35,660 nucleotides of DNA, taken from Rhypophila decipiens. Its lineage: Eukaryota > Ascomycota > Sordariomycetes > Sordariales > Naviculisporaceae. Under the pieces are notes generated by a model. The model did no database searches, was not told the DNA's origin, and saw nothing but the letters and a program-made list of their open reading frames with translations. Positions 4,409 through 7,572 of this stretch are shown one piece after another. The stretch is taken from NCBI GenBank assembly GCA_033297075.1, contig MU858320.1:1-35660 (forward strand), in the 5' to 3' direction. The position numbers and the translations under genes were made by a program. How positions within the stretch are numbered: position 1 is the stretch's first letter; each line of letters begins with the position of its first letter.

Positions 4409-7400
4409 CTAGAACAATCGGACTGGATTGACTGGATTGACTGGCCTGACTGGATTGACTGGATTGACTGGATTGACTGGATTGACTGGATTGACTGGAT
4501 TGACTGGATTGACTGGATTGACTGGATTGAATGGATTGACTGGATTGACTGGCCTGACTGGATTGACTGGATTGACTGGCCTGACTGGATTGACTGACCT
4601 GACTGGATTGACTGGATTGACTGGATTGACTGGAGTGACTGGATTGACTGGATTGACTGGATTGACTGGATTGACTGGCCTGACTGGATTGACTGGATTG
4701 ACTGAATTGACTGGAATGACTGGATTGACTGGATTGACTGAGTGGATTGACCAAATTGACTGGCCAGTACTGACTGGCTTGACTTCCTGTTTTTGACCAA
4801 ATTTCGGCTTCTTCTCTGCTGGCTTGAGAATCTAATGAAACATTCATCATCAGGGACTGACTTCTCCTCACGAGCGACGTGATAGATATTTGTAAACATA
4901 CCTGAAAGGAACACAGGAGGTCTGCGTCGATCAACATCGTTGCACTGGCGTTGTCAAATTCCCCACGGTAGTTAGGTGCACTCCACAGTGTGACAAGCTG
5001 CCTGTTCGCAAAGAACTCGTATCCATCTTCAACAACCTGGTGGCCTCGTACAATGAGATCCAGGTCGTGCTTCTGTAAAAACCGAGAGACGACATCAGGG
5101 CCAAAAGTGAAGCTGACACCCCTATCATTTTCAGCCCACCCACTAATGTCCTTATCTGGGTCGCTCCAAAGAAGATCACAGAGAAGACCGCAATCGGGTA
5201 CCTAGTATGACAAAGTGGTCAGCAAGCCGGAGTGAGAGTGGACAGAGATAGTGTCTCACATCTGCTGGCCGCATGACGCGGCGAATCTGTTCCATCGAGC
5301 TCAAATCCGGACTGAGTCCCCCGTGGCAACAAAATATCTTGTCCTCCACGATGGCGGCAAAAGGCAAACAGTTGAAAACGTCGATAAAGGACTTCCATAG
5401 CTTGATATTATAGCGCCTCCTACACTCGTCGTAAAAGCCGCTCATCCTTGATATGGCGCCGGATTCGTGATTCCCGCGGAGGAGGAAGAAGTTATCTGGA
5501 TATTTGATTTTGTATGCCAGGAGTAAACAAACTGTTTCAATGGATTGCTTGCCGTAGTCCACATAGTTCCCCAGAAATAGGTAATTAAACTCGGGAGGAA
5601 AACCGCGATACTCGAACGCCCTGAGGAGGTCATAGTATTGCCCATGCAGGTCACCAATAACCTAAACATGTCAGCTAAGGGAGGCAGATTCCAAGGGTCA
5701 GTTTAATAGGTACACATACCGCCATTGGAGCTTCCAGCTCTAACAACATCGGCTGGGAAATAAATATCTCCCTGCTCTTCTCGCATAGGTAGCGTATCTC
5801 GTTCTCGAGCAGCTGAACCAGCTTGCCAGGCTGGGAGCCGCGCACTTCCAAGAGCCGGTCGATGATAGAATCCAGATCAATCTCATAATTCTCATTCGAT
5901 GAGATCCCTGCGGGGGTACTGGAAGGGCCAGCCTGAGACGACGAAGCATCAGTCTTGGTTTCATAGGTGGTATTGTCGTTGTCGATCGATGCTAATGTCG
6001 TCTCATCACCTTCTGCTGGTCTGTCTTGGGTTGGCGGTCCGACTTTCTTTGGCGGTCCTGGAGATCCCGAGTGATCTGTGTCCCCTTCATTGTCCTCATC
6101 CGGATGCCTTTGCTGGTTCTTGTCATCCTTGTTGAGTCCGGCTTCATCGGGGGCTGATGATAGCGGATCGCTATCACTCGAGTCAGATACCTCATTTTCA
6201 CTGACCGGTTGCGGCAATACGTATAATGATACCTCGCGAAGGTGACCTGACACATGTTTATAGTACGCTGGCCCCTTTGACTGATACCCTGCGGAGCAGA
6301 AAGGGCATTCGGATGAACTCGATGCTGCGAGGGCATGCGAGTCTTCGTGTCGAGCCCATTCTCCACTAAGGCTAAAAAGACTTTTAGAGTCTGCACAAGT
6401 CGCGATTGTGCATATATACGGTCGCAGGTCATCGAAAACATGTTTTCTAAGTGAGTTAGTGAGTATGCGATATAGACCTTGGCGCCTTGTATCAGAACTT
6501 ACTTCCAGTTCCTTGTTGTCTGCACGTTGGGGATGTGCAATAAGCAGATAGAGCAGTGGACCTTGCCATCTTGTGTCTCTGGCATCGGTGGAACGCGTGG
6601 GCGACCCATACCCGAGGCCGATGCAGTGGTGGCAAAGGAAGCAAAAGTGGCTTCCGATACAGCGTCGTCGTCCACGGACAATGGTTCCGTCCTGGACCAA
6701 AGTGAGGATGACTGCATGGATAGGATAGTTGATCGGGTTGTTTTCGTGACGCCTCGGTCCGTTGTCGAGAAGAGACTTTCGGTAATGTTGTCATGGGTGA
6801 AAATATCGCTCTTCGTCGGGCGGGACCGCCTCTCACGGAGAGCGGCGGCCCGCAGGGTATTAGCTTCTGCCAGTCGCTCCAGCAGGTACTTTGGAAGTGC
6901 CTGGAAGCGGTCCCTGATTCTCCGACAGTAGATTAGAGCTTCCTCCGAGGAAACGTTGAAAATCTCCTTAGGTGATGTGGAGGCTTCATGTAAGTCTTCC
7001 GCTGGCGGATCACGCGCTGGGTTGTCCAAAGATGGCGACAAATCCAACAAGCAATCGACATAGACTGAGATTTCTTCGATAAGATCCGCAACATCGTAAT
7101 CCGAAATATCCGATCCTGTAGGTGTATAAGGTCGTTCCGCTTCATCGGGCTCGGTTTCCTGAAGCAATCCCTCGGTTGTATTCAAGAGAGACTGAAGATC
7201 CTCGCTCTGTGCTGCCAAAGACGAGCTTCGGGCCGCTACATCTTGAGAGAGACATTGAAGCGTCACGGTGCCGAGACGCAAAAGTAGCGACAAAACTCCA
7301 AAGTTCAACTCCTTTGAAGATGCAAGCTTTTCGTCGAGATCTCCGCCAGCAACAGACAAACCCTGTCCCCATAAAAATAGCCGCTCGAACTCGTTCCGAC

Positions 7401-7572
7401 ACTGTTGATACACTCCAGTAGCTTCTGTTCTTGAGAGTCTCTTAGCCAAGGAGGATATGGTTCGGCAGATCGCAACGAAAAGTTTGGCGACAAGACCAGA
7501 CCCACCCTTTGATGGCGCAGGCTTTGGCACCCAGCTCTCGACATCCTGTCTAGAGAGAAAGGATAATGACAT
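4409..7572 (-). CDS. Zinc-finger/PP1-like (pseudo)phosphatase fusion with VNP-repeat tail
   Basis: Model of 973 residues in five exons: 7572-6503, 6446-5720, 5661-5260, 5201-4902 and 4831-4409. The introns are 56, 58, 58 and 70 nt, all GT..AG and all in phase; the first has branch site ACTAAC. Residues 1-330 form an N-terminal region of the kind found in fungal receptor-like proteins. Residues 339-435 hold degenerate C2H2-like fingers ([36 protein letters not shown]). An acidic linker follows. Residues 544-845 are a PP1 catalytic domain ([56 protein letters not shown]). GDYVDRG reads GNYVDYG (Asn631, Tyr635), so a metal ligand and a phosphate-contact Arg are lost, and the usual Cys after APNY is Arg. 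Residues 865-969 are 35 VNP-type triplets; the end is VRLF. The start is a true ATG. Impaired catalysis is inferred. Confidence 0.85.
4424..4738 (-). repeat. 9-bp minisatellite, 35 units, coding for Val-Asn-Pro triplets
   Basis: There are 35 consecutive 9-bp units of TGGATTGAC (plus strand), without any length change: 315 bp in one 9-nt register. Variants are point changes only: GCCTGAC, GAGTGAC, GAATGAC, GAATTGAC and one GAATGGATTGAC. On the minus strand, in the spliced frame of the phosphatase fusion, each unit reads Val-Asn-Pro, and the variants give Arg, Thr, Ile, Ser or Phe. All other frames are also open (they read SQS, IQS or TGL), which is a trivial result of a 9-nt period. Confidence 0.9.

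Follow-up and report, generated by a model that had tools for sequence, protein, structure and literature searches.

A zinc-finger protein continuous with a PP1 domain

The stretch of DNA analysed here (the window) spans 35,660 nucleotides of Rhypophila decipiens (Sordariales) and makes up an entire contig (MU858320.1, assembly GCA_033297075.1). Its minus strand carries a gene at 4409-7572 in which a helical N-terminal module and C2H2-like zinc fingers run directly into a protein phosphatase 1 (PP1) domain, and a gene for a DUF7580 protein lies head-to-head with it. Conceptual joining of the window sequence yielded an open reading frame (ORF) of 2922 nt (973 codons plus stop) in five exons, with four introns of 56-70 nt, all GT...AG, in agreement with the continuous five-exon model of the initial annotation, which had been made from the sequence alone.

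Exon 1 (6503-7572, minus strand), an open frame with a GTAAGT donor, encodes the N-terminal helical module (residues 1 to about 250), a low-confidence linker and the start of the first finger. The finger region (residues about 337-430; 6227-6564, minus strand), recognized by the Cys/His pattern of the translation, is split by intron 1. Exon 2 (5720-6446, minus strand) is one open frame in which no stop interrupts the remainder of the fingers, an acidic linker and the beginning of PP1. Methionines occur at residues 1, 286, 322, 330, 590, 598 and later, and none falls between 330 and 590; exon 2 therefore offers no start codon ahead of the PP1 fold from which an independent PP1 could be made. 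The PP1 domain (residues 543-845; 4796-5890 with introns, minus strand), delimited by Pfam and by identity to the ordinary PP1 of the genome, extends through exon 3 (5260-5661, 402 nt) and exon 4 (4902-5201, 300 nt) into exon 5 (4409-4831), all on the minus strand; there its last residues (ILKPAEKK) are followed by an (NPV)n repeat tail.

A domain search of the 973-residue product matched STPPase_N (548-595, E 2.4e-22) and Metallophos (598-790, E 1.3e-44). Pfam returned no match over its curated cut-offs in the first 540 residues and none to C-terminal ankyrin, TPR or WD repeats in the fusion protein, where the short NPV tail stands alone. The finger family PF26082 is taken from the precomputed annotation of the relatives P0001-P0006 described below; our own Pfam scan of the fusion did not report it. 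AlphaFold predicted helices at 27-183 of the N-terminal module with high confidence.

The tail is encoded by a 9-bp tandem array within exon 5 (4421-4740, 35.6 copies of the unit GACTGGATT), found by repeat search, which lengthens the PP1 C-terminus and supplies roughly the last 100 residues of the protein. Because all three minus-strand frames are open through the array, the composition of the tail (NPV, SQS or QSI) depends on the frame. The tail is absent from the near relative P0001, which stops before the array.

Conservation of the fusion among fungi

To place the fusion among its relatives, we searched 5.8 billion proteins with the fusion product minus its repeat tail and obtained 17 matches. 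Nine of these (P0001-P0009) combine the same N-terminus with PP1; they derive from Rhypophila sp. PSN 637 (P0001, 88% identical to the fusion), Phialemonium atrogriseum, Hypoxylon sp., Echria macrotheca, Monosporascus sp. and four Fusarium entries. The gene models of P0005, P0007, P0008 and P0009 lack part or all of the fingers, perhaps through annotation gaps. The fusion thus recurs in several genera, and homologues in which the two parts are always separate genes were looked for and not found.

Joining of two adjacent genes by the annotation is accordingly a most improbable explanation. Automatic annotation does often join PP1 to unrelated neighbours, and by our reading many of the 6607 long PP1 proteins surveyed below look like such cases; here, however, a single open exon without an internal start covers both parts, and both halves, together with an asparagine at PP1 position 92, are common to nine other fusions. 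An artefact is contradicted by this sequence evidence and we reject it, in line with the initial annotation, which had already pointed to the exon shared by the fingers and the start of PP1 (6446-5720).

The N-terminal module is also found without PP1. Four further matches (P0010, P0012, P0013 and P0015) contain the module and have no PP1 match, and P0011 and P0016, both from Fusarium nematophilum, have nucleotide-binding and TPR domains behind the same N-terminal and finger module. The module aligns with P0011 at E 7e-83 (53% identity over half of the query), and the Pfam matches of P0011 comprise NB-ARC (30.3 bits, cut-off 23.5), AAA_16, DUF7779 and TPR. Judged by this domain content, the module also fronts a protein of the NOD-like receptor (NLR) type. 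A profile search returned 50 matches, many of them pieces of about 360 residues that span exon 1.

Origin of the PP1 part by copying at the DNA level

The initial annotation had anticipated an ordinary PP1 gene elsewhere in the genome (45.7 Mb, 408 contigs), and we found it on contig C12. Up to the stop, its coding exons measure 180, 402, 300 and 90 nt. Each of the three introns that separate them coincides in position with one of the three that interrupt the PP1 region of the fusion gene, and exons 3 and 4 of the fusion have the same lengths and borders as their counterparts in the ordinary gene. The shared introns indicate that the PP1 copy was made at the DNA level, introns included, and lead us to reject retroposition.

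The two PP1 sequences are identical at 242 of 297 residues (81%), and their 297 codons differ at 58, 33 and 181 first, second and third positions, respectively. The corresponding pN of 0.146 against a pS of 0.894 indicates a protein under constraint, with the qualification that these pairwise figures take in the strongly constrained ordinary gene as well. Compared with the PP1 catalytic subunit (Glc7/PPP1C), the fusion therefore shares the fold, 81% identity and three intron positions, and differs in its added N-terminal module, in having no start codon of its own for the PP1 part and in the substitutions described next.

Conserved loss of catalytic residues in the fused PP1

We compared the PP1 parts of ten fusions (the R. 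decipiens protein and P0001-P0009) with 119 PP1 matches outside the family, namely 118 new proteins from the best 120 of the 6607 long PP1 proteins, plus P0017. Position 92 is asparagine in all ten fusions, and arginine at position 96 is retained in none of them (eight Tyr, one Phe, one Cys). Among the 119 other PP1s, Asp92 is present in 112 and Arg96 in 113. Cys273, Ala247 and Leu75 are likewise each lost in 10/10 fusions. In R. decipiens the exchanges are residue 631 (Asn for Asp92; codon 5566-5568), residue 635 (Tyr for the phosphate-binding Arg96; 5554-5556) and residue 812 (Arg for Cys273; 4965-4967), all on the minus strand and assigned by alignment.

We take Asp92 to be the metal-bridging residue of PP1 and D64, H66, D92, N124, H173 and H248 to be its metal ligands. 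By this definition the six-ligand set is incomplete throughout the fusions, since D92 is always replaced, and the loss is likely to weaken metal binding. Further losses are distributed unevenly among the ten proteins: His248 is missing in five, Asn124 in two, Asp64 and His66 in one each and His173 in none, while Arg221 is missing in three and Tyr272 in eight. Tested against equally conserved positions, the catalytic residue set is lost more often (P 0.031), as is the beta12-13 loop (P 0.004). Arg96 and Arg221 cradle the phosphate and are almost universal in PPP enzymes (PMC10214084); this two-arginine clamp is broken at R96 in 10/10 fusions.

The R. decipiens fusion itself keeps Asp64, His66, Asn124, His125, His173, Arg221, His248 and Tyr272. 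A weakly active or substrate-trapping phosphatase, in which Asn92 still holds metal and the protein acts on or traps phosphoproteins, would be compatible with these retained residues. We consider it improbable, given that the relatives lose more of them (His248 in 5/10, Asn124 in 2/10, Tyr272 in 8/10) and that the near-universal clamp arginine at position 96 is gone from every member. A copy of PP1 shaped for toxin resistance is also disfavoured: Arg96, Cys273 and, in 8/10, Tyr272 change along with the metal ligand, which leaves no active enzyme to protect.

In contrast to its catalytic residues, the fold of the PP1 part appears complete. An AlphaFold model of P0001, built from 51 sequences (mean pLDDT 68, with low-confidence linkers), places the PP1 part mostly above pLDDT 80 and superposes it on a solved PP1 with an rmsd of 1.6 Å and a TM score of 0.97 of the target; the fold is thus predicted to be intact, as represented by P0001. 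For the docking surfaces we used residue lists that we take to describe the RVxF and SILK pockets. In the R. decipiens fusion 11 of 12 RVxF positions are kept, and over the whole family mean retention of this pocket is 0.80 versus 0.66 over all positions (P 0.034); retention of the SILK pocket is not above average.

Because catalytic residues are lost consistently while fold and sequence stay under constraint, the PP1 part qualifies on sequence grounds as a pseudophosphatase, a property newly described here. The complete PP1 domain of the initial annotation is therefore complete in fold and incomplete in its catalytic residues.

A zinc-finger gene family mostly paired with DUF7580 genes

To assess how widespread the N-terminal module is within R. 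decipiens, we searched the genome with four queries and identified 15 zinc-finger module loci. The C-termini behind the module vary and include PP1 (the window), a NACHT ORF (C39), ankyrin repeats (C247) and Clr5 (C67). At C39 one ORF runs from the fingers into the linker and the NACHT ORF follows (NPHP3_N, E 6e-31; NACHT, E 9e-7); the NACHT part may have its own start, and R. decipiens perhaps also has a NACHT receptor that bears the module.

In the window, the start codons of the fusion gene and of its divergent neighbour are separated by 288 bp (7573-7860), which probably hold a shared divergent promoter region. The partner was modelled with an N-terminal exon at 7861-8280 (plus strand), one of several splice choices, picked for its GTGAGT donor, and a second exon at 8355-10010 (plus strand). 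The resulting 691-codon product matches DUF7580 (PF24476) at E 1.6e-5 and 25.2 bits, just below the cut-off of 27.

This head-to-head arrangement recurs at 13 of the 15 zinc-finger loci, two of the 13 being weak. Nine pairs were established from fetched sequence (C276, which is the window, C39, C67, C222, C116, C329, C247, C72 and C176) and four from coordinates alone (C208, C4, C363 and C163). The weak cases are C163 (E 8e-4) and C363 (E 1e-4), the latter a match to the fingers alone that lies roughly 3 kb away from the DUF7580 match. At C1, a weak finger match, the fetched stretch contains no DUF7580 frame, and the genome search gave no DUF7580 match at C245. Conversely, 13 of 23 DUF7580 loci have a zinc-finger partner, the 23 comprising 21 contigs from the search (three below cut-off), the window and C116. 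The fetched sequence of the DUF7580 locus C323 revealed no zinc-finger partner, and the other nine DUF7580 loci gave no zinc-finger match with the genome queries.

Duplication of the pair as a unit explains the number of pairs, and their upkeep at 13 loci still speaks for joint action of the two genes. Among the PMC papers listed by our literature searches, titles and the opening parts of abstracts yielded no description of a DUF7580/zinc-finger gene pair. The profile of DUF7580 had no match among PDB sequences up to E 10, and a kinase identity for it is no more than suggested by a likeness to the kinase C-lobe (hhalign E 0.018, probability 2.5%).

PP1s with altered key residues outside the zinc-finger family

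Among the 119 non-family PP1s defined above, 14 have a changed or gapped key residue. By our count eight of these are true substitutions (P0058, P0095, P0129, P0137, P0138, P0139, P0141 and P0164); we left out P0115, P0135, P0140, P0150 and P0156, which have gaps or missing exons, and P0147, which has two changes and an unclear gene model. By our post hoc reading of these best 120 of 6607 proteins, HET, TIR and kinase domains are confined to three of the eight substituted PP1s.

The fungal case is P0095, from a metagenome-assembled genome of the lichen fungus Flavoplaca austrocitrina and known from one protein on one 5.8-kb contig, in which a HET domain (35-185, E 5e-26) precedes a C-terminal PP1 with Asn92, Tyr96 and Arg273. 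It resembles the R. decipiens fusion in placing such a PP1 at the C-terminus of a protein of the non-self-recognition type and differs in having a HET domain in place of zinc fingers. The metagenomic protein P0138 (544 aa) has TIR_2, at exactly the curated cut-off (28 bits), ahead of a PP1 with D64N, H66M, D92G and H125W, and is possibly another bait made of inactivated PP1, in a different eukaryote. In plants, P0137 (Erigeron) is a kinase fused to a PP1 with Asn92/Tyr96, and P0139 and P0164 (Stephania) are plant PP1-type proteins with the same pair. P0141 (Nyssa), also of plant PP1 type, carries H66K/R96E and RING-type Pfam entries.

We reconstructed two phylogenetic trees, the first with all ten fusions and all columns, the second with 11 catalytic or signature columns removed and eight of the ten fusions included (P0004 and P0006 were dropped for their long branches). 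The plant PP1s with Asn92/Tyr96 group with plant PP1 in both trees (100/100), which indicates that the pair arose at least twice; by their sequences, pseudo-PP1s have arisen in plants as well, one of them behind a kinase. In the reduced tree the eight fusions form one side of a branch (support 81/87), a topology compatible with a single capture, and P0095 joins them at support of only 32/0, so that its PP1 is not firmly placed in the fusion family. The first tree needs two changes and pulls in the long-branched P0058. A single origin of all dead fungal PP1s is therefore unsupported.

The fused PP1 as a candidate integrated bait

The gene has the layout of an integrated decoy, with a copy of a housekeeping protein on a receptor-type protein and the original kept on C12. 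Loss of catalytic residues in all ten fusions suggests that the PP1 part is a bait or sensor rather than an enzyme, and suits a decoy better than an active phosphatase. We therefore read the gene as encoding a zinc-finger receptor-type protein with an integrated dead-PP1 bait that acts with the divergent DUF7580 partner, an interpretation in which our confidence and our doubt are evenly balanced.

The mechanism that we infer would begin with the in-frame capture of a genomic PP1 gene, introns included, behind the fingers, after which the captured PP1 would have lost catalytic residues while keeping its fold. The dead PP1 could then serve as bait, luring PP1-docking effectors or regulators chiefly through its RVxF groove; their binding would alter the N-terminal module, which may act with or through the DUF7580 partner and its weakly HeLo-like N-terminus, and the outcome would be a defence or incompatibility response.

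PP1 is a known hijacking target. The oomycete effector Pi04314 docks on plant PP1c via an R/KVxF motif, and phosphatase-dead PP1c still binds it and lowers infection (PMC4740116); a bacterial effector acts on potato PP1 (PMC10273071). The nearest fungal precedent is provided by putative integrated decoys of CHK-2 kinase in Sordariales NLRs (PMC12258605), where the copy of a housekeeping signalling enzyme is likewise attached to a receptor-type protein. In those proteins, however, a kinase stands behind a complete tripartite NLR, whereas here a phosphatase stands behind a zinc-finger module with no nucleotide-binding domain and has lost key catalytic residues in 10/10 members. The only "phosphatase" in the main text of PMC12258605 belongs to an excluded gene family; the main text of PMC9815663 mentions neither phosphatase, zinc finger, C2H2, metallophos nor integrated; and titles and abstract beginnings of the PMC papers listed by our literature searches gave no description of a zinc-finger/dead-PP1 fusion. 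Within the same family, P0011/P0016 and perhaps C39 share the module and carry NB-ARC/TPR or NACHT where the fusion has PP1. Two-gene receptor/executor systems such as NWD2/HET-S, as described, likewise consist of adjacent genes, one receptor-type and one with HeLo-like potential, and differ in that the HeLo similarity of the DUF7580 partner is below threshold.

Several results weigh against the integrated-bait interpretation. The 973 residues of the fusion protein have no Pfam match to NACHT or NB-ARC, and the protein itself is therefore not an NLR. The N-terminal fold matches no PDB structure at E <= 0.001 (best E 0.84), and a HeLo fold for it is unsupported. In the PP1 part, loss of the six metal ligands, taken together, does not exceed that of equally conserved positions (P 0.23), which locates the loss of metal ligands chiefly at D92, with H248 second; RVxF retention is not significant when compared with equally conserved positions (P 0.16-0.21), and the groove is incomplete in the diverged P0004, P0006 and P0007. 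The pairwise codon figures, moreover, share the constraint on the ordinary gene. For the partner, the N-terminus reaches only E 0.032 and 14.5 bits against HeLo (PF14479, cut-off 23.2), and the hhalign score of DUF7580 against a plant kinase compares with E 0.18 for a non-kinase. The initial suggestion of a PP1 decoy in an NLR-type system is thus upheld as regards a conserved fusion, a module shared with NLR-type proteins and catalytic loss in 10/10; the NLR identity of this protein falls away, the decoy function stays conjectural, and the groove is not significantly over-conserved across the family.

The main rival places the protein within PP1 regulation: a dead, probably metal-poor PP1 would titrate SDS22 or Inhibitor-3, or scaffold regulators, and so tune ordinary PP1, non-self recognition playing no part. 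SDS22 binds PP1 lacking metal M1, and a PP1 variant unable to hold M1 stays on SDS22 in cells (PMC10776994). This trapping of metal-poor PP1 by SDS22 is what makes such a sponge the leading alternative, together with the likely weakening of metal binding by Asp92 loss and the mostly kept RVxF groove of the R. decipiens fusion. We nevertheless regard it as unlikely, because it leaves the NLR-type N-terminus, the HET-fused version and the DUF7580 pairing unexplained, and the groove is poorly conserved in several family members. A guard arrangement, in which the dead copy competes with ordinary PP1 for regulators and their removal or poisoning by an enemy shifts occupancy and activates the receptor, draws on the same structural facts as direct baiting; present evidence does not separate the two, and we rate the guard reading as less likely still than the sponge.

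Beyond the single gene, we tentatively propose, as a possibility we hold to be weaker than its converse, an undescribed two-gene fungal system in which a zinc-finger platform bears exchangeable C-termini (NACHT, NB-ARC/TPR, ankyrin, dead PP1), mostly beside a divergent DUF7580 executor. In the same proposal, PP1 would repeatedly have been made a dead bait in defence-type proteins (in fungi with zinc fingers or HET, in a metagenomic eukaryote with TIR and in a plant with a kinase), on two or more occasions via Asn92/Tyr96. If the integrated-bait interpretation is correct, one fungal integrated bait can be identified as a phosphatase, and its identity predicts the class of foreign protein being watched for, namely PP1-docking proteins; the pair would also offer a testable sensor/executor system for studying what fungal receptors detect, which is poorly understood. 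The Asn92/Tyr96 signature provides a search handle for such baits in other genomes.

Genomic setting of the gene pair

The remainder of the contig contains two HET-domain genes, at 19187-21817 and 25014-27359 (both minus strand; E 2e-25 and 1e-25), and a frame that we read as a DDE transposase of the pogo/Tigger type (33719-34768, plus strand). Together, the HET genes and the pogo-like transposase are in keeping with an accessory region rich in recognition genes. Frames at 13342-14229 (minus), 14618-15535 (minus), 24210-24980 (plus) and perhaps 10423-11859 (minus) look like a small local gene family that shares, by eye, a motif resembling AIRxIFEEV; they have no Pfam match over cut-off. The transposase-like frame is flanked by repeats at 33689-33722 and 35500-35532 whose 17-bp units match one another exactly in reverse complement, possibly the ends of the transposase element.

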